Below are positions 2,964-46,494 of a stretch of DNA of 46,494 nucleotides, one piece after another. The notes below the pieces were generated by a model. It had not been told where the DNA came from. It saw nothing but the letters and a program-made list of their open reading frames with translations, and did no database searches. The DNA lies in contig JAKAQB010000022.1 of assembly GCA_021811865.1 (NCBI GenBank), positions 1-46,494 on the forward strand. The letters are read 5' to 3'. Numbering within the stretch: the stretch's first letter is position 1; every line of letters starts with the position of its first letter. The translations under genes and the position numbers were made by a program. The stretch is from Actinomycetes bacterium (GTDB lineage Bacteria > Actinomycetota > Acidimicrobiia > Acidimicrobiales > Palsa-688).

Positions 2964-2976
2964 GGCTTTCTTCTCC

Positions 2977-4373: not shown

Positions 4374-4391
4374 CGCCGTGGCCTCCAGATC

Positions 4392-4754: not shown

Positions 4755-4775
4755 GGTCGGTTCTCCCCTCTCTCC

Positions 4776-6290: not shown

Positions 6291-6305
6291 GGCAGAAGGT
6301 CCTCC

Positions 6306-6578
6306 TCAGTCCCAGGAGATGGCGAACAGATCGTCGTCTTCATCGATGTTCCCAGAGAGGGTGATGACGCTCAGGTGGATCTCCTGGGGGTCCCACTCCC
6401 TGCCTATGTTCCGGCTCACGGTCGAGGCATTGATAACCAGCCGGCCGGGGCACTGGATCTTCACCATCGCCGGGTAACGCATCATCACCGCGTCGGGATT
6501 GTCATCGACGATGGCATCGACAATCGACCGCGCATCGTCGGTGTTCTGCAGTGTGATCGAGACAGAATTGGTGCTCAT
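6306..6578 (-). CDS. dmpM: Phenol hydroxylase regulatory (coupling) protein
   Basis: This 90-residue member of the MmoB/DmpM family is a cofactor-free effector that binds the hydroxylase and is needed for efficient turnover. Typical features are the NTDDARSIVDAIVDDNPDA segment and the later YPAMVKIQCPGRLVIN strand region. It lies 15 bases from both dmpL and dmpN, in the position usual for this operon. Start and stop are clear and no cofactor motif is present, as expected. Confidence 0.92.
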   Translation of the reverse strand: MSTNSVSITLQNTDDARSIVDAIVDDNPDAVMMRYPAMVKIQCPGRLVINASTVSRNIGREWDPQEIHLSVITLSGNIDEDDDLFAISWD

Positions 6579-6593
6579 CCGTACTCCTCCAGT

Positions 6594-7586: not shown

Positions 7587-7851
7587 CAGCGGTTCCCCTC
7601 GTCGGTGATGGAATCAGTGCTGCGTCGAGCTCGGCGAGGGCCGGCGCGACGTCCTGGGCGGTCGGAAGCAATGAGACGGCATGTACCTCGCAGAAGGCGA
7701 GGAAGGCCTCGTAGGGAAGGACCATCTCAAGGGATAGGTCAGCGTCGCCGATCTGGAAGTCGAACTCCACGAACCGGTGACGACGCACCGCCGTGACCCT
7801 CGCAAAGGCCGGTCCCCAGTCGGCGGTAGGCCGGGCAACACGTGCAGCCAT
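7576..7851 (-). CDS. dmpK: Phenol hydroxylase assembly protein
   Basis: This 91-residue protein matches the DmpK family (RFVEFDFQIGDADLSLEMVLP, then FLAFCEVH). DmpK is thought to help assemble iron into the apo-oxygenase and is not part of the active enzyme. I chose the ATG at 7851 over an upstream in-frame start because a strong purine-rich ribosome site (AGGGGGG) precedes it and the residues further upstream are not family-like. It is the first gene of the minus-strand operon. Its end overlaps dmpL. Confidence 0.88.
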   Translation of the reverse strand: MAARVARPTADWGPAFARVTAVRRHRFVEFDFQIGDADLSLEMVLPYEAFLAFCEVHAVSLLPTAQDVAPALAELDAALIPSPTRGTADAD

Positions 7852-7880
7852 GCAGTCCCCCCTACGGACCTCCATCCTAC

Positions 7881-7915
7881 GGATCTTGATCCAGTTTAGC
7901 AGCCGAAACACTATA
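7881..7915 (-). promoter_or_regulatory. Possible promoter and small palindrome before dmpK
   Basis: On the minus strand a TATAGT hexamer (7910-7915) resembles a -10 box about 60 bases before the dmpK start; no good -35 is seen at 17 bases. Between it and the gene is the small inverted repeat GGATC-TT-GATCC (7881-7892), and CCTACGGA occurs twice nearby. The 7852-8058 gap is A/T-richer than its surroundings. No sigma-54 type GG/GC promoter of the DmpR kind was seen. Confidence 0.35.
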
Positions 7916-8058
7916 CATTTGCTTCAGTCTTCCACCTTTAGTTGTGGACACTAGGATCGAGGAGGGCGGCCCTCCTCGCGGTTCGCCTGTTTCCTCAGCC
8001 GGACAGGCGGAGGGCTCTCTCGAGCCTCCGCCCAGACTGTCGGCGCGCTTGGACGAGG

Positions 8059-8970
8059 TCAGGTAAAGACGGTGAGAAAGCGGTCGTTGAGCTCCCGCTG
8101 CACGTAGAATATTCCCTTCCCCAGCTGGTCGGCGGTCCACGTTATCGTCGGAAAGTCTTCGTTGGTCACATATCCGCCCGCGAAAACCTCGTTGCGGTTA
8201 CCCGAGGGGTCGAAGAAGTAGATGGTCTTTCCCCGGGTTATGCCGTGGCGAGTGGGGCCGAAGTCGACGGCCACGTCGTCCATGGCCAGCACGTCACCCG
8301 CCTTCAACACCTCATTCCAGTCTTCGAGAAGGAATGCGAAGTGGTGAAGCTTGCCGTTCTCCCCCTTGATGATCGCCAGATCGTGCACCGTCTGACCACA
8401 GAACATCCACGTGCCGATCAGACTCGGGTTGCCGACGCTCTCCACCACCCGTTCCGAGGGCCGCCAGCCGAGGCACTCGACGAACATCCGCTCCATGACG
8501 TCGACGTCCTCAGCGGTGATGAGGGCGTGGTCGAGGCGGTGCACGGCAGCACCCCGCTGGTCGCGGGGCCATGGATCGGGGTTGATGATGCCCGTATCGG
8601 TACCGACGTATTCGATGTCGTGGTACAGCTCGAAGACGTGGCCGCTCGGGGCAGTGAACCGGATTCCGTCACCGACCGCCATGTTGTCGCCCTTGCTCAT
8701 GCGAGAGACAGTCACCCCGAAGTTGCCCAGTGACTTCTCGTACCTGTCGAGATCGTCCTCTGCAGAGCATTTGTAGCCGAGCTTTATCAACCCGACACCG
8801 CCCTCCTCCAAGACCACGGAGTGGTGGTCCCACTCGTCCCAGGCCTTGAAGTACCTTACGCCCGCCGATCTCGCCACCTCGTTCATGCCGAGGGTCCCGC
8901 CGTAATGATCTGCCGCTTCAGCCAGGTCGGTCACCCGGGCATGGACATAGCCCAGTCTCATGATGCTCAT
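8059..8970 (-). CDS. Catechol 2,3-dioxygenase, copy 2
   Basis: This second extradiol dioxygenase has 303 residues. Fe(II) ligands H148 (LDHALI), H210 (LHHFAF) and E261 (NRNEVF) are intact, as are H196, H242 and Y251 and the signature YFFDPSGNRNEVF. It is clearly a paralogue of the enzyme at 2043-2963, but the N-terminal half and substrate-pocket segments differ, so a different preference (for example substituted catechols) is plausible. Its start overlaps the stop of the upstream ferredoxin by four bases (ATGA). It probably forms its own two-gene transcript from the IclR-type palindrome at 9438-9454, with possible readthrough into dmpK. Confidence 0.94.
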   Translation of the reverse strand: MSIMRLGYVHARVTDLAEAADHYGGTLGMNEVARSAGVRYFKAWDEWDHHSVVLEEGGVGLIKLGYKCSAEDDLDRYEKSLGNFGVTVSRMSKGDNMAVGDGIRFTAPSGHVFELYHDIEYVGTDTGIINPDPWPRDQRGAAVHRLDHALITAEDVDVMERMFVECLGWRPSERVVESVGNPSLIGTWMFCGQTVHDLAIIKGENGKLHHFAFLLEDWNEVLKAGDVLAMDDVAVDFGPTRHGITRGKTIYFFDPSGNRNEVFAGGYVTNEDFPTITWTADQLGKGIFYVQRELNDRFLTVFT

Positions 8971-9368
8971 CGCGGTGGCTCCTCACCGGGAAGCGTGGGC
9001 TTCGCCCACGACGGTCTGATTGTGGGCCTCACCCATGGGATGAGACAGGTGAGATGGTCTTCGGCCTCGAGGTGGACCACGACGTCGGTGGCCGGCTCGG
9101 CCCGGCAGCTGAGACACCAGCCGCCGACGCGCTCAGAGGGGCTGAGCACCTCGGGCGCGATCGTGACCCGGTAGCCGACCCGCCCCGAGAGGACGACGAC
9201 CTTGCACCTCCCGCACCCGCCCCTTCGGCAGCCCACGGCGTGCGTGTAGCCCTGGCGCTGGAGGGCGGCGAGGATCGTCTCGCCGGCGCGTACGGTGATC
9301 GTGACCCCGTCGGGCTCGAACACCACCGAGCGGCTGTCCTGATCCCCTCTTGAGACGACGGCCTCCAA
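8967..9368 (-). CDS. [2Fe-2S] ferredoxin paired with second catechol dioxygenase
   Basis: This 133-residue ferredoxin has the plant-type motif CRRGGCGRC (C47, C52, C55) and the fourth ligand at C88, with an extra cysteine at C85. It resembles DmpQ/XylT proteins that re-reduce catechol 2,3-dioxygenase. It is translationally coupled to the dioxygenase that follows (ATGA). It is about 20 residues longer than copy 1 and has a Trp/Pro-rich tail of about 28 residues after the cluster domain. It has the same ferredoxin-then-dioxygenase order as dmpQ-dmpB, so the pair may be a duplicated or separately acquired cassette. Confidence 0.9.
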   Translation of the reverse strand: MEAVVSRGDQDSRSVVFEPDGVTITVRAGETILAALQRQGYTHAVGCRRGGCGRCKVVVLSGRVGYRVTIAPEVLSPSERVGGWCLSCRAEPATDVVVHLEAEDHLTCLIPWVRPTIRPSWAKPTLPGEEPPR

Positions 9369-9437
9369 AGTTCGGCACCCCCTCGATGCGTCCTTCGGCC
9401 ACTATGGAACAACCCTGGACAGGCTGCCTACGTTGGT

Positions 9438-9454
9438 GTTCCGTGCAACGGAAC
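9438..9454. promoter_or_regulatory. Perfect palindrome, candidate IclR-family operator
   Basis: GTTCCGT-GCA-ACGGAAC is a perfect inverted repeat with 7-base arms. It lies 70 bases upstream of the minus-strand ferredoxin/dioxygenase pair and just past the stop of the IclR gene. IclR-family regulators often bind palindromes with TTCC and GGAA ends. A related site occurs on the other side of the regulator gene (10266-10280), which strengthens the case. The function is inferred. Confidence 0.55.
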
Positions 9455-9479
9455 GTGGTCCAGGCGTCCGGATCGGGGA

Positions 9480-10250
9480 TCAGCAGGGAGCGCTGCTCAG
9501 CACCCGCTGCAGCCCGAGGCCGGCGGTCCGGACCGCCGAGCCCACCCGCTCTTCGGAGATGCGCTCTCCGGGTCCTGTCACCGACATCGCTGCCACTGCC
9601 TCCCCGCCGACGAGGATGGGCGTGGCCACGCAGTGGATGCCGATGGCGTTCTCGTCGCGGTCCATGGACACGCGGGTCCGGCGGATGTTGGCCAGCTCCT
9701 CGAGCAGCACCCGGGGGCTCGTGATGGTGTACGGCGTTCGGGCCTCCAGCCCCCCGCCAGTGATCACCGCGGCAGCCGATTCGGGTGTGAAGGCGAGGAG
9801 CGCCTTGCCGACCCCGGTGCAGTAGGCAGGGAGCCTGCCACCGACCCGAGAGGCGAGCTGGCGCTGCTTGTGGTGGCCCTGGATACGCTCTATGTAGAGG
9901 ACCTCGGTGCGGTCGAGGACCGCCAGGTGGACCGTCTCGTGGGTCACCTCGTAGAGGTCCTCCATGAAGGGCAGGGCCGCTTCACGCAGATCACGCTTGC
10001 GCGGCACGTGCTCGCCGATCTCGAACATCCGCATGCCGAGCCGGTACTCCTGGCCAGACCGCTCGACGGCCCCCAGGCACACCATCGAGGCCAGGATCCT
10101 GTGGGCCGTGCTCTTGGGAAGCCCCGCACGGCGGGCTATCTCGGACAGGCTCAGCCGCTCGGCGTTGCCTTCGCAGAAGGCACCGAGCACGTCGAAGGTA
10201 CGGTTGAGGATCTCGATCCCCCCACCCTGCACGGCATCGGTGATCCCCAC
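9480..10250 (-). CDS. IclR-family transcriptional regulator of the aromatic pathway
   Basis: This 256-residue regulator has an N-terminal winged helix-turn-helix (LSLSEIARRAGLPKSTAHRI, about 34-53) and a GAF-like effector domain, with the family segments RLPAYCTGVGKALLA and ENAIGIHCVATPI. It starts with GTG at 10250. It is transcribed away from dmpE and ends next to the second ferredoxin/dioxygenase pair, so it sits between the two arms of the pathway. IclR members often control aromatic catabolism and their own gene. Candidate operators lie on both sides (9438-9454 and 10266-10280). The effector, perhaps phenol or a meta-pathway intermediate, is unknown. No DmpR/XylR-type activator gene is visible. 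Confidence 0.9.
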   Translation of the reverse strand: MGITDAVQGGGIEILNRTFDVLGAFCEGNAERLSLSEIARRAGLPKSTAHRILASMVCLGAVERSGQEYRLGMRMFEIGEHVPRKRDLREAALPFMEDLYEVTHETVHLAVLDRTEVLYIERIQGHHKQRQLASRVGGRLPAYCTGVGKALLAFTPESAAAVITGGGLEARTPYTITSPRVLLEELANIRRTRVSMDRDENAIGIHCVATPILVGGEAVAAMSVTGPGERISEERVGSAVRTAGLGLQRVLSSAPC

Positions 10251-10265
10251 GGGGCGAGCCTAGTA

Positions 10266-10280
10266 TTCCGTGACGTGGAA
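10266..10280. promoter_or_regulatory. Imperfect palindrome in the iclR-dmpE divergent region
   Basis: TTCCGTGACGTGGAA lies 15 bases from the IclR start and about 80 bases before dmpE. It shares the half-sites TTCCGTG and GGAAC with the perfect palindrome at 9438-9454. This fits autoregulation of the IclR gene and control of the dmpE operon from one site. It is inferred from the repeat and position only. Confidence 0.45.
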
Positions 10281-10361
10281 CGCCTCGATTGGCGCCGGCG
10301 GGCTTCCGAAATATGTTCATCCCGTGGGCGGACGACTTCCGGACGATCCAAGGAGGGCCCG

Positions 10362-11147
10362 GTGCTGAGCGAGGCCGACCGAGCCCAGGCTGCTGCCGCC
10401 CTCCGGGAGGCCGAAGCCAGCCGCCGGCCCATCGCCCCGCTGTCCGAGAGCTATCCCGGCATTGACCCTGTCGATGCCTACTGGATCCAGCTCGCCAACG
10501 TCGAGCACCGGGTATGCGCCGGCGCCCTCGTGAGAGGGCACAAGGTTGGCCTCTCGTCCACGGCGATGCAGGAGATGATGGGCGTGGACGAGCCCGACTA
10601 CGGGCATCTCCTCGATGACATGTTCGTCTACGAGGGTGCCGACGTAACCACCGAGCGCTACTGCGCTCCCCGGGTAGAGGTCGAGGTGGGGTTCGTGCTC
10701 GGCGAGGCGCTGCCAGGGCCGGGCTGCTCTGTGGCCGACGTGCTGCGCGCCACCGAGTTCGTGATGCCCTGCATCGAGATAATCGACAGCCGCATCGCGG
10801 ACTGGAAGATCACCCTGCCCGACACCATTGCCGACAACGCCTCTTCCGCTGCCATCGTCATAGGCGGTACCCGCACCTCGGTCCAGGCCATCGACCTGCG
10901 CACGGTGGGCGCGGTGCTGAGGCGCAACGGTGAGATCGTCGACAGCGGGTCTTCGGGAGCCGTGCTCAACAACCCCGCCACCGCGGTGGCATGGCTCGGT
11001 AACAAGGTCGCCACCTTCGGCGTGAAGCTCGAGGCGGGTCACGTCATCCTGCCGGGCAGCTGCACCAGGGCCCACCCGGTGAGGGCCGGCGACTACATCC
11101 GCGTCGACTTCGATGGCCTCGGCCATGTCGACGTCAACTTTGCCTGA
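10362..11147 (+). CDS. dmpE: 2-Oxopent-4-enoate hydratase
   Basis: The enzyme hydrates 2-hydroxypenta-2,4-dienoate to 4-hydroxy-2-oxovalerate. The protein has 261 residues, normal for the MhpD/DmpE family. Family stretches include GHKVGLSSTAMQEMMGV, PRVEVEVGFVLG (acidic metal-binding cluster), EIIDSRIADWKI and DNASSAAIVIGG. I chose the GTG at 10362, which follows AAGGAGGG at a good distance; the longer open frame upstream runs through the divergent promoter and is chance. It is paralogous to DmpH downstream and is first in the operon dmpE-F-G-H. Confidence 0.93.
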   Translation: MLSEADRAQAAAALREAEASRRPIAPLSESYPGIDPVDAYWIQLANVEHRVCAGALVRGHKVGLSSTAMQEMMGVDEPDYGHLLDDMFVYEGADVTTERYCAPRVEVEVGFVLGEALPGPGCSVADVLRATEFVMPCIEIIDSRIADWKITLPDTIADNASSAAIVIGGTRTSVQAIDLRTVGAVLRRNGEIVDSGSSGAVLNNPATAVAWLGNKVATFGVKLEAGHVILPGSCTRAHPVRAGDYIRVDFDGLGHVDVNFA

Positions 11148-11156
11148 GAGGACCCC

Positions 11157-12050
11157 ATGCCACGAATCCCTGCTGCCATCGTCGGTTCGGGCAACATCGG
11201 CACTGACCTCATGTACAAGCTGAGCCGCTCGGAGGTCCTGGAACCGGTCTACATGGTTGGCGTCGATCCTGACAGTGAGGGCTTGGCCCATGCCCGCCGC
11301 ATGGGGGTGGAGGCCAGCCATGAGGGCGTGGACTGGCTGCTCTCCCGCCCGGACCTGCCCACCGTCGTGTTCGAGGCGACCAGCGCCTCCGTCCACGTCC
11401 GCAACGCACCCCGCTACAAGGAGGCCGGCATCCGGGCGGTGGATCTCACCCCAGCGGCGCGCGGGCCGTACGTGATCCCCCCTGTCAACCTGGGCGACCA
11501 CCTCGACGCGATGAACGTCAACATGGTCACCTGCGGCGGGCAGGCCACCATCCCCATGGTCCACGCGGTGAGCAGCGTGGCCGAAGTGCCCTATGCGGAG
11601 ATAGTTGCCTCGGTCGCCTCCAAGTCCGCCGGCCCTGGCACCCGGGCCAACATCGACGAGTTCACCACCACGACGGCCCGCGCCGTGGAATCGCTCGGGG
11701 GCACGCCCCGGGGTAAGGCCATCATCATCTTGAACCCCGCGGAACCGCCGCTCATCATGCGTGACACGATCTACTGCCAGGTCCCCGAGGACGTAGACCA
11801 TGACAAGGTGGTTGCCTCCATAGAGGACATGGTGGTTTCCGTCGCCGAGTACGTGCCTGGCTACCGGATGACGGTGCCACCCCAGTTCGGCCGGTCAAAG
11901 AATGGGATCCCGAGAGTGGCCATATTCCTCGAGGTGGCAGGCGCTGGCGATTTCCTACCCCCTTACTCCGGCAACCTCGACATCATGACCGCGGCGGCAA
12001 CGCGGGTCGGCGAGCAGATCGCGCTTCACGCCGCAGGGAGGAGGGTTTGA
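11157..12050 (+). CDS. dmpF: Acetaldehyde dehydrogenase (acylating)
   Basis: It converts acetaldehyde, CoA and NAD+ to acetyl-CoA. At 297 residues it has the family length. An N-terminal Rossmann motif ([13 protein letters not shown], 7-19) binds NAD, and the catalytic cysteine is in [12 protein letters not shown] (C126). In this family it forms a complex with the aldolase DmpG, which channels the volatile acetaldehyde. dmpF is followed three bases later by dmpG, in line with this. No defects are seen. Confidence 0.95.
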
Positions 12051-12053
12051 CCA

Positions 12054-13097
12054 GTGCCATACTCGCCAGATCTCGACGTCAGGCTCACCGACACGTCGCT
12101 CCGGGACGGTTCCCACGCCCGGTCGCATCAGTTCACCGAGGATGAGGTGCGCTCCGTGGTGGCTGCCCTCGATGCCGTGGGCATACCAGTGATCGAGGTC
12201 ACCCACGGGGACGGCCTTGGAGGTTCGTCCTTCAACTACGGGTTCTCGGGCACCGACGAGCGGGTGCTGATGAAGGTCGCTGTGGCGACCGCCCGCCGGG
12301 CAAAGATCGCAGCGCTCATGCTCCCAGGGCTGGGCACCAAAGACGACATCCGCTTCATCGCGGATGCCGGGTTGTCCGTGGTGCGCATAGCCACGCATTG
12401 CACCGAGGCTGACATCGCTGTCCAGCACTTCGGCATCGCCAGGGATCTCGGCTTGGAGACCGTGGGCTTCTTGATGATGGCACACTCCCAGCCGCCGGAG
12501 ATGATCGCCGCTCAGGCCCGCATCATGGCCGACTCCGGCTGTATGTGCGTCTACGTGGTGGACTCTGCCGGTGCCCTCATCCTCGACGGTGTGACCGACC
12601 GCGTCGCCGCGGTGGTAGCCGAACTGGGCGCTGACGCCACCGCGGGTTTCCACGCCCACGAGAACCTCGGCGTCTCGGTGGCCAACAGCATCTACGCCAT
12701 TCGCGCCGGGGCGGTGCAGATTGACGGCTCAACCCGCGGCCTGGGCGCTGGCGCCGGCAACACGCCGCTCGAGGCGCTCAACGCGGTGGCCGACCGCCTC
12801 GGCATCACCACCGGCGTCGACGTCCCGGGTCTCATCGACGCTGCCGAGGACGTGGTCCGGGCGGTCATGGAAGAAGAGTGCATCAAGGACCGCATGTCGG
12901 TGACCATGGGCTACGCCGGGGTCTACAGCTCCTTCCTGCGCCACGCCTACGACGCCGCCGACACCTATGGTGTGTCGGGGGCTGCCATTCTCACCGAGTG
13001 CGGCCAGCGCAAGCTGGTGGGCGGCCAGGAGGATCAGATCATCTCCATCGCGGCCGCGCTCGGCGCGGCACGCGAAGAGGTTCCGTCAGGTGCCTGA
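12054..13097 (+). CDS. dmpG: 4-Hydroxy-2-oxovalerate aldolase
   Basis: It cleaves 4-hydroxy-2-oxovalerate to pyruvate and acetaldehyde. The 347-residue protein starts with GTG at 12054. A HMGL-like TIM barrel is shown by [11 protein letters not shown] (metal-binding D18 with R17), [15 protein letters not shown] (metal-binding His pair) and [17 protein letters not shown]. The C-terminal part pairs with DmpF in the known complexes. Its stop overlaps the dmpH start by eight bases. Confidence 0.95.
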
Positions 13098-13869
13098 TCT
13101 CGCCAAGCTGGCCCGGTACCTGGTGGACGCCGAAGCACGCCGCGAGGCGGTGACACCCATCACAGACGCCGAGCCAGGACTCAGCGCCGAGGATGGCTAC
13201 GCCATACAGGCCCTGGTGATCGATGCCAAGTTGGCGGCGGGCGAGCGGGTGGTGGGCGCCAAGCTCGGCCTCACCTCCAAGGCCAAGCAGGCCGCCATGT
13301 CGGTTGACCAGCCCGTCTACGGCGTCCTCACCTCTGGGATGGCCCTCGGTTTCGACCAACCCCTCAACTGCGACGAGCTCATACACCCCCGCGTTGAGCC
13401 CGAGATCGTCTTCATGCTCGCAGAGTCCCTCGCCGGACCAGGAGTCACCGGCCACGACGTGCTGGACGCCACTCGCTGGCTCACGTGCGGGCTCGAGGTC
13501 ATCGACAGCCGCTTCGCCGACTTCCGCTTCACCCACGCCGACGTGGTGGCGGACAACACGAGTGCCTCGCGCTTCTGCCTCGGCAGCATGCGTTGCTCCC
13601 CGTCCGAGGTCCCCGACCTCTCCCTCGTCGGTTGCAACCTTCAGGTGGGGTCCAAAGTGGTCGCCACCGCCGCGGGCGCAGCCATCCTCGGGCACCCCGC
13701 AAGCGCGGTGGCCATGCTCGCGAACTGGATGGGTGCAAGGGGTGGTTCCCTCGACACCGGGACAATCATCTTCTCGGGTGGCCTGACCAACGCCGTGCCG
13801 ATGCACCCAGGGGTGAGCGTGTCCGCCACCTTTGCCCGCCTCGGCACCATCACCCTGCGGGGGGTATAG
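13090..13869 (+). CDS. dmpH: 4-Oxalocrotonate decarboxylase
   Basis: It decarboxylates 2-oxohex-3-enedioate to 2-hydroxypentadienoate, the substrate of DmpE. The protein has 259 residues from the GTG at 13090, which overlaps dmpG. Family marks include [32 protein letters not shown] (acidic metal site), [20 protein letters not shown] and the C-terminal [14 protein letters not shown]. DmpE and DmpH are homologous. I call this one DmpH from its N-terminal [20 protein letters not shown] segment and its place after dmpG. Its substrate comes from the dehydrogenase/tautomerase branch: the tautomerase next door looks broken and no dehydrogenase is in the window. Confidence 0.92.
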
Positions 13870-38763: not shown

Positions 38764-40029
38764 TCAGATCGCCGTGGGCGGGTCCGCATTGGCAGCCACG
38801 AAGTGGCTGGGCGTCTCGTGGTGTCGCTGGGCGAGGGCGACAACCGACCCGGCGAGGAGCATGCCGACCGACAGGGCGAGCCCGACGCTCAAGCCGGCGG
38901 GTCCATCGGAGAGCACACCGGCGAGCACCGGGCCGAGACACTGGCCAACGGCGAAGGCAACCGTCAGCCCGGCGATCGCCGGGGTCCAGTGGTGCGGCTG
39001 GAGCGAGCGGCGGGCAACTGCGGTGATCGCGGTGACAACCGACAGGAACGACCCCCCGAACAGCAGCGCCGATCCCATGGCAGCCTCCGGCGATCTGGAC
39101 ATGAGCGGCAGCAGCGCCCCGGCTCCGAGCACGGCGAGCACCATGGCGGCTCCGTGCCCCCCGCGGAGGTTCGCGATCGGCCGGGCCCAGGCGAAGGCAC
39201 CGGCGATCGAGGCGGTGCCGAGCACGACCCAGAAGGCGGTGATCCCCGAAGGACCCATGCCGTGGCCTTTCAAGAATGCGACGATGAAGGTCATGTACGC
39301 GATGTAGCCCGCCCCGAAGAGGCCGTAGGAGACGAGCAGGGCTCCGAGACGCCGGGCTGGCCAACTCCTGTCGGCGACAGGCGGCGCCGGGGGCTCGGCG
39401 CTGGCCAGCGCGACAGGCGTCGCGACGCCGAAGGCCACGGCGCCGAGCCCTGCGAGCGCGACCCATCCCCACCGCCAGCCGTCTGCGAGGCTCGTTGCGG
39501 CGAGAAGGTACGGGATCGCGAGACCCGACGCGACGATCGCCGCCCCGCCCCCGGCGAAGTAGACGCCGAGCAGCGTGGCTGCCCGGTGGGGGGAGGTGGC
39601 CGACGCGGCCGCGGCGACGAGCCCGGCACCGGCGATGAAGGTGATCGCGCCAGAGGCCCCCGCTGCCGCGCGCAAGGCGACCAGCGCCACAGTGTTGGCG
39701 GTGGTGGCCGTGGCGAGGAGTGCGAGCACGGTGACCCCGAGGCTCGCGACGAAGACCCGACGCGTCCCGTAGCGACGTGCGACGACCGCTGCTGCCATCG
39801 CCCCGGCAAGGTAGCCGAGGGCGTTGGCGGTGCTCATCGCACCGGCGGTGGCAAAGGACCAGTGCAGATCGGCGCGCATCGAAGGGAGCAACAAGGCATA
39901 GGCGAAGCGCGCGAGGCCGATCGCGACCGCGGGTCCGAGCGCCAAGCCGAGAGCGGTCCTTGGACCTTGGCGATGGCTCGGGCTCCTCGCCGGCGAGGCG
40001 CGCCGAACCGTTCGGCTGGACGCCCTCAT
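38764..40029 (-). CDS. MFS transporter, YbfB/YjiJ family
   Basis: This 421-residue protein has 12 predicted membrane helices. Family hallmarks are GLARFAYALLLPSMRADLHW near the N-terminus and GAGYIAYMTFIVAFLKGHGM in the central region. YbfB-type proteins are uncharacterised major-facilitator carriers, often next to TetR or LysR regulators. It shares an ATGA overlap with the TetR gene before it, so both are likely on one mRNA controlled by that repressor. The substrate is unknown. Confidence 0.88.
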   Translation of the reverse strand: MRASSRTVRRASPARSPSHRQGPRTALGLALGPAVAIGLARFAYALLLPSMRADLHWSFATAGAMSTANALGYLAGAMAAAVVARRYGTRRVFVASLGVTVLALLATATTANTVALVALRAAAGASGAITFIAGAGLVAAAASATSPHRAATLLGVYFAGGGAAIVASGLAIPYLLAATSLADGWRWGWVALAGLGAVAFGVATPVALASAEPPAPPVADRSWPARRLGALLVSYGLFGAGYIAYMTFIVAFLKGHGMGPSGITAFWVVLGTASIAGAFAWARPIANLRGGHGAAMVLAVLGAGALLPLMSRSPEAAMGSALLFGGSFLSVVTAITAVARRSLQPHHWTPAIAGLTVAFAVGQCLGPVLAGVLSDGPAGLSVGLALSVGMLLAGSVVALAQRHHETPSHFVAANADPPTAI

Positions 40030-40607
40030 CCTCGCTGCCCCTGGTAGGCGTCGATGATGATCGCGGCCAAGCGCCGGGCGTCTGCCGCCGCTGCGAGGTC
40101 ACCATCGACGGTCACCCGGGCGTTCGCGCCGTCGACGAGGAGCATCAGGTCGGAACCCAGGCGCTCCGGATCGGAGATCCCGGCTTCGCTGGCGAGCCCG
40201 GCCAGGTACTCGCGCATCCAGCGCTTGTGGCGACGGGCCACCTCCCGGGCCGGATGTCCCGGGCCGGCGACCTCAGCGGCGGCGTTCACGAACGCGCATC
40301 CCCGTTCCCCCCCGACGCTCGCGTGCCAGGTCGCCAGCCAGTCGAAGACCGCGAGGAGCCGCTCACGTGGGCTGTCGCCGTGCGCGCGCACCCAAGCGTC
40401 GAGCATCGCCACCCGCTCGGCATGGCGTCGTTCGAGCACGGCGGCAACGAGGTCGTCCTTGGAGCCGAAGTGCGCGTAGAGCGTCGGCTTGGACACCCCC
40501 GCACGGGCCACGACCTTGTCCACCCCCGTCGCCGCGATGCCCTCCGCGTAGAACAGCTCGGTGGCGGTGTCGAGCAGCCGTGCGTGGGTGGCATCGGAAG
40601 GGCTCAC
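40026..40607 (-). CDS. TetR-family repressor
   Basis: This 193-residue regulator has an N-terminal HTH (ATGVDKVVARAGVSKPTLYAHFGSKDDLVAAVLERR) and a ligand domain with VGGERGCAFVNAAAEV. I chose the GTG at 40607. A longer frame with ATG at 40637 would place the palindrome 40615-40630 inside the coding region, which is less likely. The GTG has GGGAG directly before it, so a leaderless or very short leader is possible. It should repress itself and the MFS gene. Confidence 0.9.
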   Translation of the reverse strand: MSPSDATHARLLDTATELFYAEGIAATGVDKVVARAGVSKPTLYAHFGSKDDLVAAVLERRHAERVAMLDAWVRAHGDSPRERLLAVFDWLATWHASVGGERGCAFVNAAAEVAGPGHPAREVARRHKRWMREYLAGLASEAGISDPERLGSDLMLLVDGANARVTVDGDLAAAADARRLAAIIIDAYQGQRG

Positions 40608-40614
40608 CTCCCTA

Positions 40615-40630
40615 TACTGACAGGTCAGTA
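40615..40630. promoter_or_regulatory. TetR operator
   Basis: TACTGAC-AG-GTCAGTA is a perfect inverted repeat with 7-base arms. TetR-family operators often have this TGAC-N2-GTCA core. It lies 8 bases before the GTG start of the TetR gene, where a bound repressor would block the promoter. Confidence 0.75.
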
Positions 40631-40704
40631 AAGCCATCGCAAGTCACCGGGCTCGCCGAGCTGCATGGTCTCGGTGACCGCACGCTGCGCGGCCGCTGGT
40701 CGCA

Positions 40705-41667
40705 TCACAGGCTCTTCACCTGCACGAGCACCTTTGCGTGCGGGGAGCGGGCCTGGGCTGCCCAGGCCGCCGTCACCTCCTCGAGGACCACCACGTCGTG
40801 GTCCAGGCGCAGCCGGCCTTCGCTCGCGTGGTGGAGGAGAGACTCGATCGCAGATCGCTGCTCGGCTTGGGGCAGTGCGAAGTTCGTGTACCCGAGGATC
40901 TCCATGTGCCGGGAGCGCAACAGCGCCGAGGGCAGGCTCATGGTCGGACCAGCGGAGTCGCCAAGGTTCACGAGGCGTGCCCCGGGGGCAGCCGCCATCG
41001 CGCCGGCGAGCGCGGCCTCGCCCCACAGCGGGTCGATGATGACGTCAAGGTGGCCCTCAGCTGCGTCCACGATCGCCTCGGCAAGCGCCGCCGGGTCCCG
41101 CCCGTCGAGAACCACGGTCGCGTGCGCGCCGAGATCGACGAGGCTTGGGAGTGCCGCCGCGTCCCGGCCGGCAGCGACGACGCGCGCGGCGCCGAGCAGG
41201 GCTGCCACCTGGAGACCGAGGCGGCCGACCGCCCCGGTCGCCCCGAGCACGAGCACGCGGTCTCCTTCGTGGAGCCGGGCAGCCGCCAGGCTGCCCCAGG
41301 CAGCCATCCCCGCAACCCCGATACCTGCAGCGAGCGTGTCCGAGACGGCATCTGGCACAGCTACGAGCGAGTCCTCTCGCACCGCCACGAGCTCGGCGAG
41401 CGCCCCGGGGCGCGCGGATCCGAAGCGGACCCGCTGGCCGAGAGGCCAGCGCCGAGAGGCCCGCACCACCCCCATGCCCTCGCTTCCCACCACGTAGGGA
41501 ACCTCGGGACGTGCGCCGTAGAAGGTGCCCGTCGCTACCCGCAGGTCCACCGGGTTCAAAGCTGCCATGGCCACCTCCACGAGCGCCTCGCCTTGACCGG
41601 GCACCGGCTCTTTCATCTCCCCTGGCACAGGGGCCTCCCCGAAGTGCTCCAGGATCGCTGCTCGCAA
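40705..41667 (-). CDS. Quinone oxidoreductase-like MDR-family enzyme
   Basis: This 320-residue medium-chain reductase has the GroES-like N-terminus (AAILEHFGEAPVP, then ALNPVDLRVATGTFYG), the NADPH-binding VLVLGATGAVGRLGLQVAAL and no Zn-binding cysteine set. It fits the zeta-crystallin/QOR group. The start is the TTG at 41667: the good Shine-Dalgarno-like GAGGAGGAAGAG is just upstream and no ATG fits. It is divergent from the MerR gene, whose operator lies in the shared promoter region. Such pairs respond to electrophiles or oxidants in many bacteria. Confidence 0.85.
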   Translation of the reverse strand: MRAAILEHFGEAPVPGEMKEPVPGQGEALVEVAMAALNPVDLRVATGTFYGARPEVPYVVGSEGMGVVRASRRWPLGQRVRFGSARPGALAELVAVREDSLVAVPDAVSDTLAAGIGVAGMAAWGSLAAARLHEGDRVLVLGATGAVGRLGLQVAALLGAARVVAAGRDAAALPSLVDLGAHATVVLDGRDPAALAEAIVDAAEGHLDVIIDPLWGEAALAGAMAAAPGARLVNLGDSAGPTMSLPSALLRSRHMEILGYTNFALPQAEQRSAIESLLHHASEGRLRLDHDVVVLEEVTAAWAAQARSPHAKVLVQVKSL

Positions 41668-41721
41668 CGTCTCTTCCTCCTCGCTGTCTCGCTGTCGCCC
41701 CGGTCGGGCGCCGGCAGAGGT

Positions 41722-41754
41722 ACCGTAGACCTTGACATTGGTGTGAAGGTCAAG
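41722..41754. promoter_or_regulatory. MerR-type operator and promoter
   Basis: CTTGACATT (41731-41739) and AAGGTCAAG (41746-41754) are near-perfect inverse complements. On the minus strand TTGACC (41748-41753) and TACGGT (41722-41727) form -35 and -10 boxes with a 20-base spacer, longer than usual, as MerR-activated promoters have. The palindrome lies between or overlaps the boxes, so the MerR protein probably activates the reductase gene from here. Confidence 0.6.
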
Positions 41755-41785
41755 TGGAGCAGGCCAGGATCGAGAGGAGCGTCGT

Positions 41786-42148
41786 ATGCAGATCGGCGAG
41801 CTGGCGCAACGCACGGGCGCGAGCACGAGATCACTGCGTCACTACGAGACCAAGGGGCTGCTCGTTGCCGACCGGCTCGACAACGGCTACCGGGACTACG
41901 GAACCGACGCGATCGACCGGGTGAGAAGAATCCGGTCGCTCCTCGCCTCGGGGATGAGCCTGGCCGAGCTGGGGCCGCTCATCTCTTGCATGGCCGGCGA
42001 CGGAGCGACCCTGCTTCGCTGCAGGGCCACGATCGATGCCGTCGAGCATCGCCTCGGTCAGCTCGACCAGCGGATCGCAGAGCTGAGCGAAGCCCGAGCC
42101 CTGCTCGCAGCGCTGCTCGACGGGCCTGGCGCAGGCGCGGCCCATTGA
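41786..42148 (+). CDS. MerR-family activator
   Basis: This 120-residue regulator opens with MQIGELAQRTGASTRSLRHY, the family HTH, then LVADRLDNGYRDYG and a coiled-coil (AVEHRLGQLDQRIAELSEA). The ligand end has two cysteines (SCMAGDGATLLRC). They may sense a metal or electrophile. The ATG at 41786 follows GAGAGGAGCG. It is divergent from the quinone oxidoreductase gene and should control it. Confidence 0.88.
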   Translation: MQIGELAQRTGASTRSLRHYETKGLLVADRLDNGYRDYGTDAIDRVRRIRSLLASGMSLAELGPLISCMAGDGATLLRCRATIDAVEHRLGQLDQRIAELSEARALLAALLDGPGAGAAH

Positions 42149-42426: not shown

Positions 42427-42858
42427 TCAGGAAGGGTCGTGACCGGTCAAGCATGAACGACGACGGTGCTCGTAGAGACCGTCGAAGACCACGGCAGTGA
42501 CCTCGATGAGCTCGGGGTCGTCCAGGACGAACGACATCCCGCGCGCCAGCGCGTCGAGACCCGGTGCCTCTGGAGCGTCGAAGCGCGAGTCGGCGAGGTC
42601 AGCCTCATGGACGATCCTCGCGAGATCCCAGAGCACCGGGTCGTCCAACCCGTAGCGGCGCAGCATCGTTTCGAAGGTGCAGTCCGGCCCGTGGTGGGAG
42701 AGCTCCACACCGGGGACGTCGAACGCGATCGCGTCGCTTGGCAGCTCGGCGCGGTCCTCGACGAAGGCGAACGCCGCCTCGGCGTCTATGAACCGGCGGA
42801 TGAGCCAGGCACAGGCAATGCGGTCGACATGGCAGTGGGCCCGGGTCACCCAGCGCAT
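42427..42858 (-). CDS. ChrB C-terminal-type protein (chromate resistance), copy 1
   Basis: This 143-residue protein matches the C-terminal domain of ChrB: RWVTRAHCHVDRIACAWLIR, RFIDAEAAFAFVEDRAEL, FDVPGVELSHHGPDCTFET and a final IVHEADLADSRFDAPEA. In classical ChrB this domain follows an N-terminal regulatory domain in one protein; here they are separate genes with a TGATG overlap. ChrB senses chromate and controls its operon. A second version lies at 45650-46096. Confidence 0.85.
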   Translation of the reverse strand: MRWVTRAHCHVDRIACAWLIRRFIDAEAAFAFVEDRAELPSDAIAFDVPGVELSHHGPDCTFETMLRRYGLDDPVLWDLARIVHEADLADSRFDAPEAPGLDALARGMSFVLDDPELIEVTAVVFDGLYEHRRRSCLTGHDPS

Positions 42859-43382
42859 CAGGGCTGCTCCAGCCGGGCGGCGGTCGGCCCAGCGGGGCTC
42901 GGGGAATCAGTTCGCCGCTCTCGCGGATCGAAGGCGAGCGCCTCGATCGCCTGCACGGCACGCTCGCGCGCCGGCGGAGCGACGAAGTCACGCTGGCGGA
43001 CCTGCTCGAGCTGTCTCCGGAGCTTCGATAGCGCCCGCGCCCGTGCCGCACCGGTGGTCCGTGCCGCCTCGACGGCCTCGCGGGCCAGCGCCTCGTACTC
43101 GGCCGCGCGCTCCTCGCCCATGCGCTCCATGAGCAACGCCGAGGCCTGGGACGTCGTCGGGCGGCTGGTCCACACGCTGGCCTCGCCACCCACTTCGACG
43201 ACGCCGGCAGCCAGCCATTCGAGCTGCTCCTCGCCGCGCGCGCTGTGCGGCAACATTGCGACGCCGTCGGCGACTCGGAGCGCCCCGAGCTGGCGAAGTC
43301 GACGCCACAGGCCGATGCGGGGCGTCGAAGGCTCCCGCGGGAGACGGTAGACGAGCATCACCCACGAGCGCTCTCCGGCCAT
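42858..43382 (-). CDS. ChrB N-terminal-type regulator (split ChrB)
   Basis: This 174-residue protein starts with SWVMLVYRLPREPSTPRIGL and contains WRRLRQLGALRVADGVAMLP, the N-terminal domain of ChrB, a PaaX-like winged-helix fold. The C-terminal half is a charged helix with many Arg/Ala. It is divergent from the beta-propeller gene and is followed without gap by the ChrB-C domain gene. It is presumably the DNA-binding half. A candidate operator lies in the divergent promoter (43404-43437). Confidence 0.85.
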   Translation of the reverse strand: MAGERSWVMLVYRLPREPSTPRIGLWRRLRQLGALRVADGVAMLPHSARGEEQLEWLAAGVVEVGGEASVWTSRPTTSQASALLMERMGEERAAEYEALAREAVEAARTTGAARARALSKLRRQLEQVRQRDFVAPPARERAVQAIEALAFDPRERRTDSPSPAGPTAARLEQP

Positions 43383-43403
43383 CCCGTAAGCCTAGCCCGA
43401 CTC

Positions 43404-43437
43404 TTGACGAGTTGCGCAACCACGGTTACATTGACCG
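43404..43437 (+). promoter_or_regulatory. Divergent promoter with palindrome, candidate ChrB operator
   Basis: On the plus strand TTGACG (43404-43409) and TACATT (43427-43432) form -35 and -10 boxes with a 17-base spacer. Inside the spacer is the perfect 10-base palindrome GTTGCGCAAC (43411-43420), and ACGGT (43422-43426) and ACCGT (43434-43438) form an inverted repeat around the -10. A repressor here would block transcription of the propeller-MFS genes. Confidence 0.6.
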
Positions 43438-43477
43438 TAGCCGTCGGCTCACGATGGCACACCGGAGGACGCCACGC

Positions 43478-44359
43478 ATGGGGTTGAGGAGGATCGCGAC
43501 GGTAGAGCTGCCATCGGGCGGCAGCTACGACCCCGCCGACGTGCACCTGCGAAGCGGGCGGGTCCACCTGGCCAACACCGCCCTCGACCAGGTCGAGGTC
43601 CTCGACGGACCGGGCGCGAGCCATCTCGCCAGCATTGCGGGGTGCGCAGGCGCAAGCGGCGTGCTCGCTGTCGGCGAGGCGATGGTCGCCGCGGCCCGCG
43701 GCTCGGGTGAGGTGCTCGTCCTCGACGGCGCAACCGCGCAGTTGCTGCGCCGCTTCCCAGTCGGTCCCGCGCCGAACGGCCTGGCGTGGGATCCCGACCG
43801 AGCCCAGCTGCTCGTCGCCGACACGAGCGAGCACACCGCTCGTCTCGTCGACTTGGGCGGATCGGCGATCGCCACCGTGGCGCTCCCCGGTCGCCCCCGA
43901 TGGGCGGTCCACGACGCGTGCTCGGGCCACTTCCACGTGAACGTGAAAGATCCCGCCGGCGTCATCGCCCTCGACGCCGTCGAGCTTGCCACGGTCGGCT
44001 GGTTCCCGCTCGAGGCCGTCGGCCCGCACGGCCTCGGCCTCGACACCGAGCGAGGCGTGCTGCTCGTCGCCTGCGACGACGCGTCACTGCGCTTCGTGGA
44101 CCCGAGCTCCGGTCACGAGCGCCACGCCGTCGCGCTCGCGGGAGAGCCCGACGTCGTCTTCGTCGATGCGCGACGAGCCAGCGCGCACGTCTGCGTCGGC
44201 GATCCGCCGACTTTGCACGTCATCGATCTCGACGATCGCGCCATGCGCGAGGTCATCACGACGGGCGCCGGTGCGAAGACTGCCGCCCTCGATGCCGAGC
44301 GGGGGAGGTTCTACGCCTTCCTGCCGGCGGCGGGCCAGGCGTGGGTCTACGGGCTGTGA
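43478..44359 (+). CDS. YVTN/YncE-like beta-propeller protein
   Basis: This 293-residue protein has repeated blades of the kind LLVADTSEHTARLVDLGGSA and GVLLVACDDASLRFVDPSSG and ends with GRFYAFLPAAGQAWVYGL. No signal peptide is visible, so it is probably cytoplasmic. I chose ATG 43478, which follows GGAGGACG at a good distance; ATG 43454 lacks a ribosome site. It is not a known part of chromate operons. Its stop codon overlaps the MFS start (GTGA), a strong sign of coupled translation. Confidence 0.75.
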   Translation: MGLRRIATVELPSGGSYDPADVHLRSGRVHLANTALDQVEVLDGPGASHLASIAGCAGASGVLAVGEAMVAAARGSGEVLVLDGATAQLLRRFPVGPAPNGLAWDPDRAQLLVADTSEHTARLVDLGGSAIATVALPGRPRWAVHDACSGHFHVNVKDPAGVIALDAVELATVGWFPLEAVGPHGLGLDTERGVLLVACDDASLRFVDPSSGHERHAVALAGEPDVVFVDARRASAHVCVGDPPTLHVIDLDDRAMREVITTGAGAKTAALDAERGRFYAFLPAAGQAWVYGL

Positions 44360-45633
44360 TCGGCGCGCACGACCGCTCCGGGGACGAGGGGGACCTCCGC
44401 CGGATCCTTTTCGCCCGCGGCGCTCGGGGGCTCGCCTCGGGGTACTTCGCGGTGGTCCTCGGCGTCGAGCTGCACCACCAGGGACTGTCGGGCATCGAAG
44501 TCGGCCTCGTGCTCGGTGCCATCCTCGGCGGTGCGGCGTTCGCCCTTCTGGGGGTGCGTCGCTTCGCCGACGGCGCTGGTCGCCGGCGCTGCTACCTCGC
44601 CGGCTACCTCGTCCAGTCGGCGGCGGGCCTCGTCCTCGTCATCTCCCCGTGGTGGTGGCTGCTCGTCCTCGTCGGCCTGACCGGAGCGCTGTCGGGCGAG
44701 ATCATCGACTCGGGCCCCTTCAATGCGCTGGAACAGGTCATGCTCGCGGCCGCGGTCACCGAGGAGCGACGCCTGCGCACCTTCAGCCGCTACAGCGCGG
44801 TCGGCACCGCGACGGGCGCGCTGGGCGCGCTCGGTGCCGGGCTGCTCGAGCTCGCCGGCACCGGCGCGATCAGCCGATCGAGCTTCCTTCCGATCATCCC
44901 GTTGGCTCTGTTCGGGGCAGCATGCGCGTGGAGGCTCTCGACTCGCGTCGAGCATGACGCGGTCGACGTCATGAGCGCGTCGCTCGCGCCGGCCATCGCC
45001 AGCCAGCCCGCCGGCGGCGAGACCCGGCGGATCGTGCACCGGCTCTCGGTGCTGTTCGCCCTCGACTCCTTCGGAGCCGGCTTCACGGTCCAGGCTTTCG
45101 TCGCCTACTGGCTCGCCGCCCGCTTCGACGCGAGCACGCTCTCGATCGGCATGATCTTCCTCGGGCTCGGAGTGCTCCAGACCATCTCGATGATGGTGGC
45201 GGGTCGCCTCGGCGAGCGGTTCGGGCTGCTGGCCACGATGGTGTTCACGCACCTGCCGTCCAACGGGTTCCTCGCCGCGATCGCCTTCGCCCCAAGCCTG
45301 CCCGTCGCCGCGGTGCTGCTCTTCCTTCGTGCCTCGCTGTCGCAGATGGACGTCCCGACGCGCAACGCCTACGTCATGGCCCTCGTCCCAGCCAAGGACC
45401 GGACCGAGGCCGCTAGCACGACCGGCCTGGCCAGGCTCATCGCGCGCCCGCTCGGTCCGCTGCTCGCCGGAGCGGCTCAGAGCCTGGCGCTCGGCGCGCC
45501 CTTCCTCATCTCCGGGGCGCTCAAAGGCATCTACGACGTCAGCCTGTGGCTGTGGTTCCGGCGTGTCCCGCTTCCCGAAACAGACGATCGCCCGGCGGTC
45601 CCCGCGATGCAAGCCAAAGAAGCAACCACATGA
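44356..45633 (+). CDS. MFS transporter linked to ChrB-type genes
   Basis: This 425-residue transporter has 12 membrane helices and a central hydrophilic loop (about 205-225) of the MFS kind, starting LRRILFARGARGLASGYFAV. The GTG start overlaps the propeller stop. Chromate operons with ChrB normally carry ChrA (CHR family); here the exporter is an MFS protein with a different fold. It may export chromate or a related oxyanion, as MFS carriers between ChrB-type genes occur in some actinobacteria and proteobacteria. The substrate is not proven. Confidence 0.85.
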   Translation: MIGAHDRSGDEGDLRRILFARGARGLASGYFAVVLGVELHHQGLSGIEVGLVLGAILGGAAFALLGVRRFADGAGRRRCYLAGYLVQSAAGLVLVISPWWWLLVLVGLTGALSGEIIDSGPFNALEQVMLAAAVTEERRLRTFSRYSAVGTATGALGALGAGLLELAGTGAISRSSFLPIIPLALFGAACAWRLSTRVEHDAVDVMSASLAPAIASQPAGGETRRIVHRLSVLFALDSFGAGFTVQAFVAYWLAARFDASTLSIGMIFLGLGVLQTISMMVAGRLGERFGLLATMVFTHLPSNGFLAAIAFAPSLPVAAVLLFLRASLSQMDVPTRNAYVMALVPAKDRTEAASTTGLARLIARPLGPLLAGAAQSLALGAPFLISGALKGIYDVSLWLWFRRVPLPETDDRPAVPAMQAKEATT

Positions 45634-45649
45634 ACGAAGGAGCAACGAC

Positions 45650-46096
45650 ATGAGATGGATGACCCGTGCCCGCCCGAAGACCGACCGGATCGCGTGCCCC
45701 TGGCTGATTCGGCGCTTCATCGACCCCGACGCGGCTATCATCTACGTCCCCGCCGGCGAGGTGATCCAGCGGGCCGGAGCACAAGGCGCGCGCACCTTCG
45801 ACGCACCGGGAGCGGAGTTCACCCACCGCGACAACAAGTGCAGCTTCGAGGTGCTCATCGACGAGTTCGACCTCGCCCGCGACGACCCCGCGCTCGTGCG
45901 GCTCGCCAAGATCGTGCACGCCGCCGACATCGCCGCCGACTCGGGCTCGGACCCCCTCGGAGCCGGGCTCGAGGCCATCGGCATCGGCGGACTTGACGTC
46001 GAAGCGGACGACCAGCTCCTCCTCGAGCGCGGCTCGTTCGTCTACGACGCGCTCTACGCCTGGTGCCGGCGCGAGGCTGCCTCCCCTACGCCCTGA
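45650..46096 (+). CDS. ChrB C-terminal-type protein, copy 2
   Basis: This 148-residue protein is a paralogue of 42427-42858: RWMTRARPKTDRIACPWLIR, RFIDPDAAIIYVPAGEVI, FDAPGAEFTHRDNKCSFEVL and IVHAADIAADSGSDPLGAGL. Start: ATG 45650 after GAAGGAG. The Asp/His/Cys residues conserved in both copies suggest metal binding or catalysis. It is encoded last on the plus strand and directly follows the MFS gene by 16 bases, so a shared mRNA is probable. Confidence 0.88.
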   Translation: MRWMTRARPKTDRIACPWLIRRFIDPDAAIIYVPAGEVIQRAGAQGARTFDAPGAEFTHRDNKCSFEVLIDEFDLARDDPALVRLAKIVHAADIAADSGSDPLGAGLEAIGIGGLDVEADDQLLLERGSFVYDALYAWCRREAASPTP

Positions 46097-46171: not shown

Positions 46172-46494
46172 GTGCGTAGGGCACGACAGGTCTTGGTGGC
46201 GGGGGTTCAGGGCCATCGCGCGACCGTCGGGTTATCGACCCGACGGAGTTGCTGGTCACGGCGCCGTGCCCGTGTACTGCATAGGCAGTTGCCCTACCAG
46301 GCCGACGCCGACGCGGTGGAGACGTGGAAGCGTGAGAAGTTCCCGGCGATCCGGGCTGAGGCGGCCAAGGTCGGAGCCGTGGTGTTGTTCGAAGGCGAAG
46401 CGTCGCTGCGCTCGGAGCTCCACTCCGCCACGACGTGGGGGGTCGTTGGTCAGACCCCGATCATGAAGACCACCGGAGCCCGCTATCGGGTCAA
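46172..46494 (+). mobile_element. IS630-like transposase fragment (runs off the window)
   Basis: An open frame to the window end has the clear part PYQADADAVETWKREKFPAI, then VVLFEGEASLRSELHSATTW and GVVGQTPIMKTTGARYR, which match the catalytic-core region of IS630-family transposases. The usual acidic motif (xDExG) reads FEGEAS, so the first catalytic Asp may be lost. The N-terminal half is not found in the 75 bases upstream; codons before about 46292 are Arg-rich and doubtful. It looks like a truncated or decayed copy. The 3' half is outside the window. Confidence 0.6.

Follow-up and report, generated by a model that had tools for sequence, protein, structure and literature searches.

A probable split-ChrB chromate regulon with an MFS transporter in the place of ChrA

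Toward one end of a contig from an Actinomycetes bacterium (Acidimicrobiales, Palsa-688; contig JAKAQB010000022.1 of assembly GCA_021811865.1) lie two divergent gene groups. The leftward group consists of chrB-N and chrB-C, the two halves of a split ChrB; the rightward group consists of genes for a beta-propeller protein, an MFS transporter, and a second protein with a ChrB_C domain, here called chrF. The contig was analyzed over its full 46,494 nucleotides, referred to below as the window. I propose, with moderate confidence and on the strength of sequence comparisons, that these genes make up a chromate regulon governed by the split ChrB, with the MFS protein as the target transporter in the place of ChrA. 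What is new is the ChrA-less combination of ChrB, MFS, and ChrF, together with its control.

ChrA is regarded as central to chromate efflux in bacteria. MFS proteins of the ChrP type have been named, and the literature examined yielded no tested function for them. Because clusters like the one in the window keep ChrB, a common operator, the MFS gene, and chrF in genomes that give no match to ChrA, the function of the MFS protein can be tested in them free of a ChrA background. The cluster is a test case for chromate export without ChrA.

The cluster and its genes

The features of the cluster, by position in the window, are:

42427-42858, minus strand: chrB-C, C-terminal (sensor) half of the split ChrB, 143 amino acids; PF09828 (ChrB_C), E 3.4e-49, 167.1 bits against a cut-off of 25
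42858-43382, minus strand: chrB-N, N-terminal half of the split ChrB, 174 amino acids; PF20229 (ChrB_N), E 2.9e-11, 44 bits against a cut-off of 23
43404-43432, plus strand: predicted promoter TTGACG-17-TACATT, reading towards the propeller and MFS genes
43416-43429, no strand: putative operator palindrome GCAACCACGGTTAC, consensus GTAACCRYGGTTAC, from conservation across related loci
43464-43469, plus strand: ribosome-binding site GGAGGA of the propeller gene, from reading the sequence
43478-44359, plus strand: YncE-type beta-propeller (chrK/chrZ-like), 293 amino acids, from the annotation of relatives
44356-45633, plus strand: MFS transporter of the subfamily that contains ChrP, 425 amino acids, GTG start; MFS_1, E 5.3e-21
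45650-46096, plus strand: chrF, stand-alone ChrB_C protein, 148 amino acids; PF09828, E 5.6e-44

The original prediction, made from the sequence alone, had ChrB divided between two genes, and both domains indeed exceed their Pfam cut-offs on adjacent genes, the stop of chrB-N and the start of chrB-C sharing one base (TGATG). The match in chrB-N covers only positions 1-79 of the 159 in the profile. The overlap of four bases between the propeller and MFS genes is also exact (GTG of the MFS gene at 44356-44358, TGA of the propeller gene at 44357-44359), and it recurs in four related loci, L008, L010, L012, and L015, of which the last three are mutually identical. The MFS protein matches MFS_1 only and not PF02417, the domain of CHR/ChrA transporters. 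NCBIfam gave no match for the ChrB proteins and only sub-threshold matches for the propeller and MFS proteins.

An operator in common with chrA operons

When the divergent intergenic regions of related loci are aligned, a single conserved block stands out, the palindrome GTAACCRYGGTTAC, represented in the window by GCAACCACGGTTAC. A palindrome in this region had been predicted, and one is there, the conserved element being GCAACCACGGTTAC at 43416-43429 rather than the perfect 10-mer GTTGCGCAAC at 43411-43420. The latter is present but not conserved, and its lack of conservation rules it out as the operator.

A site was counted as an operator if it had at most two mismatches to GTAACCATGGTTAC, unless stated otherwise; the site in the window has two. 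Under this rule the operator is found in all 11 MFS clusters with ChrB-N (the window and 10 other loci), which amount to 8 distinct cases, three being identical in the operator region and two nearly so. It lies before ChrB-N in 10 of 11 actinobacterial plasmid loci with split ChrB (L001, L002, L089-L097), the exception, L095, having two copies at three mismatches. These plasmids come from 46 records with ChrB-N, of which 10 were inspected, together with FB24 and Chr15. It also lies at or just before ChrA in each of the 11 testable loci where ChrA directly precedes ChrB-N (L060, L061, L063, L065-L071, L083; the contigs of L062 and L064 begin inside ChrA).

The operator was not found, even at three mismatches, in any of 10 loci with fused ChrB (L003, L036, L044, L046, L050, L051, L098, L099, L105, L107), nor in L106 and L108, which encode a rhodanese-ChrB_C fusion and stand outside that count, nor in any of 10 MFS loci without ChrB-N (L016-L025), a count from which L011 and L028 were left out for too little upstream sequence. 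Of the 30 loci that the scan for ChrB-N gave, one repeats the MFS cluster of G001, 13 have ChrA immediately ahead of ChrB-N, and 16 have lower-scoring ChrB-N-like proteins, which in L073 and L077 are fused ChrB. Just one of those 16, L078, has the operator. As for chance, 2000 mononucleotide-shuffled stretches of 460 bases gave no site at two mismatches and sites at three in 0.3 percent, and the whole 46.5-kb window holds one site at two mismatches, that at 43416-43429, and one at three.

The chromate resistance cluster of Arthrobacter FB24 has four copies: one precedes chrA, one separates SCHR from the frame that follows it, one lies between chrB-N and the side of chrK, and one precedes chrJ. 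By a word search, the main text of the paper on that cluster (PMC2751784) contains none of the terms palindrome, inverted repeat, operator, promoter, or binding site, and a search of the open-access literature for an operator of split ChrB gave nothing relevant by title. The 14-base operator offers a means of predicting which genes of Actinomycetota belong to split-ChrB regulons, the studied FB24 cluster among them. On a plasmid of Streptomyces mirabilis (L092, position 4726) a site with two mismatches precedes a row of ATP-binding, fetB, and YncE genes.

The position of the operator suggests how it might work. In the window the palindrome sits in the spacer of TTGACG-17-TACATT (one found, against 0.0 expected in shuffled sequence) and overlaps the -10 box, ending in its TAC. 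A hexamer beginning with TTG stands 17 or 18 bases before the TAC at the operator's end in 8 of 8 listed MFS operons and in 10 of 11 listed chrA operons (the exception is chrA of FB24), these having been hand-picked from sites already found, with L060, L063, and L083 giving way to longer copies; L071, L095, and loci nearly identical to others were omitted. Since the layouts match, the switch that seems to drive chrA elsewhere stands here before the genes for the propeller, MFS, and ChrF. That ChrB regulates this operon is well supported by these comparisons.

Two different ChrB_C proteins

The original prediction treated two features of ChrB as oddities, its division and the double occurrence of its C-terminal domain. 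The first is not unusual. A split ChrB has been described in Arthrobacter FB24 (PMC2751784), and judging from the sequences examined it is a common form in Actinomycetota: chrB-N followed by a ChrB_C gene is found on plasmids of Arthrobacter, Rhodococcus, Dietzia, Tsukamurella, Nocardia, Streptomyces, and Miltoncostaea. A search with ChrB-N gave 284 relatives at E 0.001, the 120 listed carrying PF20229 alone, although the search admits proteins up to 1.75 times the query length and so mostly shuts out fused ChrB. Because stand-alone ChrB-N proteins of the same length recur in relatives, the split is no sequencing error, and a frameshift artefact is ruled out.

The second feature also has an ordinary explanation. 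Two ChrB_C proteins exist, but in a tree of 40 ChrB_C sequences chrB-C (42427-42858) groups with ChrB-Cterm of FB24 and other split C halves (support 93/95), and the second protein (45650-46096) falls in a clade with ChrF of pMOL28 (support 97/93). Because the two belong to different clades, the window should be read as having ChrB plus ChrF. Recent duplication of ChrB-C is excluded by their separate clades and by their identity of 42-43 percent.

Both proteins conserve the residues connected with the response to chromate. Mutated residues needed for that response in ChrB of Ochrobactrum include R180, R187, H229, and H258 (PMC3817168, in its available text). The seven mutated residues fit the spacing of positions 1, 6, 13, 21, 22, 55, and 84 of ChrB-C in the window, where the expected R or H occurs at all but position 1; R6, R13, H55, and H84 are in register with the four named, the register being set by spacing and the Ochrobactrum sequence itself standing outside the alignment.

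Structure models extend the picture in part. ChrB-N is modelled as a ferredoxin-like beta-alpha-beta-beta-alpha-beta domain, similar to those of Cas2 and PaaX, followed by long helices, and Foldseek returned PaaX (8a39, E 1.7e-3) as the best match and then mostly Cas2 proteins. One fused ChrB has a sub-threshold match to PaaX_M, a Cas2-like domain. PaaX has an N-terminal winged helix, and this domain of the PaaX family is not seen in the ChrB-N model. According to a second-look structural aligner, and to that tool only, the ChrB_C model may resemble phosphoesterases of the DHH type; Foldseek returned nothing significant for it. The PDB, searched by sequence with ChrB_C, the MFS protein, and profiles of ChrB-N and ChrB_C, yielded no convincing match. 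Searches of the open-access literature found nothing linking ChrB, DHH, and chromate, and only a single comparative genome paper for ChrB with PaaX.

I propose the following mechanism. ChrB-N and ChrB-C together would act as a repressor on GCAACCACGGTTAC at 43416-43429, which lies in the spacer and overlaps the -10 box, and when bound there would block polymerase. Chromate, the likely inducer, would be sensed through R6, R13, H55, and H84 of ChrB-C and would derepress the propeller-MFS-chrF operon, and probably chrB as well. Cytoplasmic chromate would then be lowered by the MFS protein, most simply by export, with ChrF perhaps modulating the response and the propeller as an accessory. The ChrB of Ochrobactrum is reported to act as a repressor that chromate relieves (PMC3817168, available text).

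A bolder version would make the MFS protein the only dedicated chromate exporter in a group of Actinomycetota, its operator handed over from ChrA, and hence the whole a ChrA-independent chromate efflux system, and would derive the oxyanion pocket of ChrB-C and ChrF from a DHH enzyme, with arginines replacing the metal ligands. I consider this possible but somewhat doubtful.

Related clusters and the absence of ChrA

A scan of GTDB genomes with the MFS protein gave 47 loci, 22 of them (L008-L029) from metagenome-assembled genomes of actinomycetes. Six loci have the whole arrangement (L008, L010, L012, L015, L026, and L027, the last ending at a contig end), four have ChrB-C, ChrB-N, and MFS but no complete propeller gene (L009, L013, L014, L029), six have MFS and ChrF (L011, L016, L018, L021, L025, L028), and six of the 22 show no ChrB gene. 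In the closest relatives the MFS frames are intact at 83-91 percent identity, and the flanking genes differ among the loci.

None of the 21 genomes that hold the 22 loci gives a match to ChrA (PF02417), and 17 of them have ChrB_C; that all are metagenome-assembled, several closely related and their completeness not stated, counts against leaning heavily on these numbers. Of 296 genomes drawn from the phylum, 104 have ChrA and 27 have ChrB_C (in G046 as a fragment), and ChrA accompanied ChrB_C in 22 of the 27, the other five being G001, G014, G071, G073, and G081. Fisher's test gives p 7.7e-8 for 22/27 against 0/17 and 2e-4 for 104/296 against 0/21, values to be taken as rough, the genomes being related and the two sets overlapping in G001 and G014. 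A relative of the MFS protein (E 1e-20 or better) occurs in 14 of the 27 drawn genomes with ChrB_C, and in three of them (G001, G014, and G066) it is the contig neighbour of ChrB_C.

Several of the related loci show other variations. In L016, L018, L021, and L025 MFS and chrF form a pair, and ChrB-N, the propeller, and the operator are all missing. A MarR-type gene stands just upstream of the pair in L018, divergently oriented, and L025 has a relative of this gene, so control of such pairs may have passed to a different regulator. The MFS protein of L020 (6001-7266), 85 percent identical to that of the window, is preceded by a gene for an OmpR-type response regulator, in a genome without a ChrB_C match. 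In L008 chrF is followed at 7894-9390 by an ArsR-type helix-turn-helix (HTH) plus rhodanese frame, with relatives in L010, L012, and L015; chrE of pMOL28 also encodes a rhodanese.

The propeller

In Pfam the propeller scores 21.6 bits with SGL, short of the threshold of 26.3, and it is so called because many relatives bear the name 'DNA-binding beta-propeller fold protein YncE' or 'YVTN family beta-propeller protein'. From the four-base overlap it had been concluded that the propeller and MFS proteins should act together. That conclusion is weakened by L009, L013, L014, and L029, which keep MFS and ChrB without an intact propeller. Remnants of 59 and 47 codons persist in L009 and L029, the MFS frame of L013 begins at the position expected for the propeller, and L014 has about 400 bases with at most a ten-codon trace. 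Since four relatives lack most or all of it, the propeller seems to be accessory in clusters of the window's type, and an obligate pair is ruled out.

FB24 speaks against regarding the propeller as merely accessory: there, chrA was more strongly expressed when chrB and chrK accompanied it, and deletion of accessory regions lowered resistance (PMC2751784). As for the chrK propeller, no more than a suggestion of a regulatory role has been made.

Comparison with known systems

The determinant of Arthrobacter FB24, studied genetically, consists of chrL, chrA6, chrB-Cterm2, SCHR, chrK, chrB-Nterm, chrB-Cterm, and chrJ (PMC2751784). It resembles the window in its split and adjacent chrB-N and chrB-C, its YncE/WD40 propeller divergent from chrB-N, its extra ChrB-C frame, and its operator. 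It differs in having chrA, SCHR, chrJ, and chrL, in having no MFS annotated in the stretch examined, and in its propeller, which has a signal sequence (PMC2751784), while the window's propeller begins without a visible hydrophobic leader, unlike chrK and chrZ. Judged as a determinant of the FB24 type, the window has adjacent chrB-N and chrB-C and the operator GTAACCRYGGTTAC, a criterion defined in this analysis and not in the FB24 paper, but lacks chrA in the cluster.

Cluster chr1 of pMOL28 from Cupriavidus metallidurans CH34 has the order chrI, B1, A1, C, E, F1, O, N, P, Y, Z, according to the available parts of PMC2864759 and PMC11647585. It too unites chrB, chrF, an MFS gene (chrP), and a YncE propeller (chrZ), so a propeller or MFS gene beside chr genes is less unusual than the original prediction supposed (PMC2864759, available part). 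Unlike the window, it has a fused ChrB, has chrA, has another gene order, and gave no operator; its ChrP belongs to another clade of the MFS subfamily. The five genes from chrO to chrZ are reported there to be chromate-induced, with 'no data given' (PMC2864759, available part). In the accessible text of the CH34 transcriptome study a mixture of metals raises chrP along with other genes (PMC11647585), and in that of the matching proteome ChrP and ChrZ were not detected (PMC11647595).

Operons with chrA beside split chrB, under the same operator, occur in Miltoncostaea oceani, Dietzia, Rhodococcus opacus PD630, and Streptomyces mirabilis. Further genomes of Actinomycetota with such operons have the same promoter layout as well. 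The regulated transporter of these chrA/split-chrB operons, unlike that of the window, is ChrA.

EmrB is an MFS protein. The emrAB efflux operon of a Staphylococcus strain, a non-ChrA system as proposed for the window, is reported to add to chromate resistance; it is a multidrug operon, with no link to ChrB in the accessible part of its description (PMC5033799). It was the only system bearing on the question in an open-access search for MFS with ChrB or without chrA, and a search for chromate clusters of acid mines found nothing.

What the MFS protein might do

The original prediction named the MFS protein as the exporter. An MFS gene is indeed in ChrA's place, but that it exports chromate can be proposed only by inference. 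It is 39.2 percent identical to ChrP of pMOL28 over 80 percent of the query. The window's clade (14 sequences) and chr-linked proteobacterial members (8 sequences) have 79 conserved positions in common, most of which are found also in 11 members without a chr gene nearby. In the tree, the window's clade and ChrP are separate clades of one subfamily, and linkage to chr genes requires 8 changes, at least 7 if counted by the starred branches. With separate clades and no single origin of chr linkage, the idea that orthology with ChrP is settled was dropped. Because the conserved positions extend to members without chr genes and linkage changes repeatedly, the subfamily reaches beyond chromate and seems to have been recruited to chr clusters, or to have lost that linkage, more than once. 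Its genes lie in chr operons of Pseudomonadota too; in Stutzerimonas the gene directly follows chrF, and in the window it directly precedes it. There were 75 plasmid records with a relative of the MFS protein, and of nine inspected, seven have chrA or chrB-type genes nearby, L007 and L109 being the other two.

A number of observations weigh against a chromate regulon with the MFS protein as its transporter. Some concern the transporter: chr-linked members do not form one clade; no chr gene is found in 6 of the 22 actinomycete MFS loci and in 18 of the 25 others (some contigs being short); G066 has MFS beside ChrB_C yet has ChrA elsewhere in its genome; and the absence of ChrA holds for the cluster, the genome of the source organism lying outside the search. 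Because MFS usually co-occurs with ChrA in Pseudomonadota, it need not be the exporter. Others concern control: at most of the plasmid sites, those ahead of chrB-N included, no clear -35 box is seen, and the model of ChrB-N has no recognizable HTH. ChrB of Ochrobactrum still bound a mutated repeat in gel shifts and was not released by chromate in vitro (PMC3817168, available text). In FB24, peroxide raised chrL 12.5-fold and chrJ 6.6-fold, and arsenate raised chrB-Cterm 5.3-fold (PMC2751784).

The most serious alternative is that the cluster answers chromate and its MFS protein moves a secondary product or ligand, such as a Cr(III) complex, a thiol complex, or some other anion, as an accessory like ChrP beside ChrA, with tolerance resting elsewhere. 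The same subfamily is found downstream of intact chrA on plasmids of Burkholderia, Stutzerimonas, Sinorhizobium, Methylocystis, and Rhizobium, and in pMOL28 as ChrP, and members without chr genes possess most of its conserved positions. One would have to explain why none of the 21 genomes, 17 with ChrB_C, matches ChrA, and why MFS and ChrB are retained where the propeller has been lost. I regard this alternative as rather unlikely, though deserving attention.

It was also predicted that the cluster may serve chromate or another oxyanion by a poorly described type of system. The type stands, as a ChrB-type system with an MFS protein in ChrA's place, borne out by the operator and the survey of ChrA; as to the ligand, chromate is likelier than an unspecified oxyanion. 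A ChrB re-tuned to molybdate, tungstate, selenate, sulfate, or arsenate, with chromate not the natural inducer, would fit the occurrence of the MFS family outside chr loci, and differences among chr loci have been interpreted as a sign that some may be selective for 'another metal-oxyanion' (PMC2864759, available part). It is improbable, given that both ChrB_C proteins keep the chromate-response residues and that the FB24 cluster has the same operator. All eight genes of that cluster are induced by chromate, most responding to it far more than to lead, arsenate, or peroxide (PMC2751784).

Least credible is a decaying chr island that has lost chrA and any useful function, for although four relatives have lost the propeller and several relatives lack both ChrB-N and the propeller, the frames remain intact at 83-91 percent MFS identity, with overlap, promoter, and operator conserved amid different flanking genes.

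Neighbouring genes

Directly after chrF an open frame (46172-46492) runs off the window; Pfam finds nothing in it, but it appears to resemble part of an IS630-type transposase. On the other side, the stretch 38764-42148 holds an MFS_4 (YbfB-like) gene and a TetR gene with overlapping ends, a gene like those for zinc-type alcohol dehydrogenases or quinone reductases, and a MerR gene. The far end of the window (1-13100) carries genes of aromatic degradation: two Phenol_Hydrox subunits (4776-6290 and 6594-7586, both minus strand), a ferredoxin-type reductase (3309-4373, minus), two catechol-2,3-dioxygenase-like genes (2043-2963 and 8059-8970, both minus), and a DmpG-type aldolase (12054-13097, plus).

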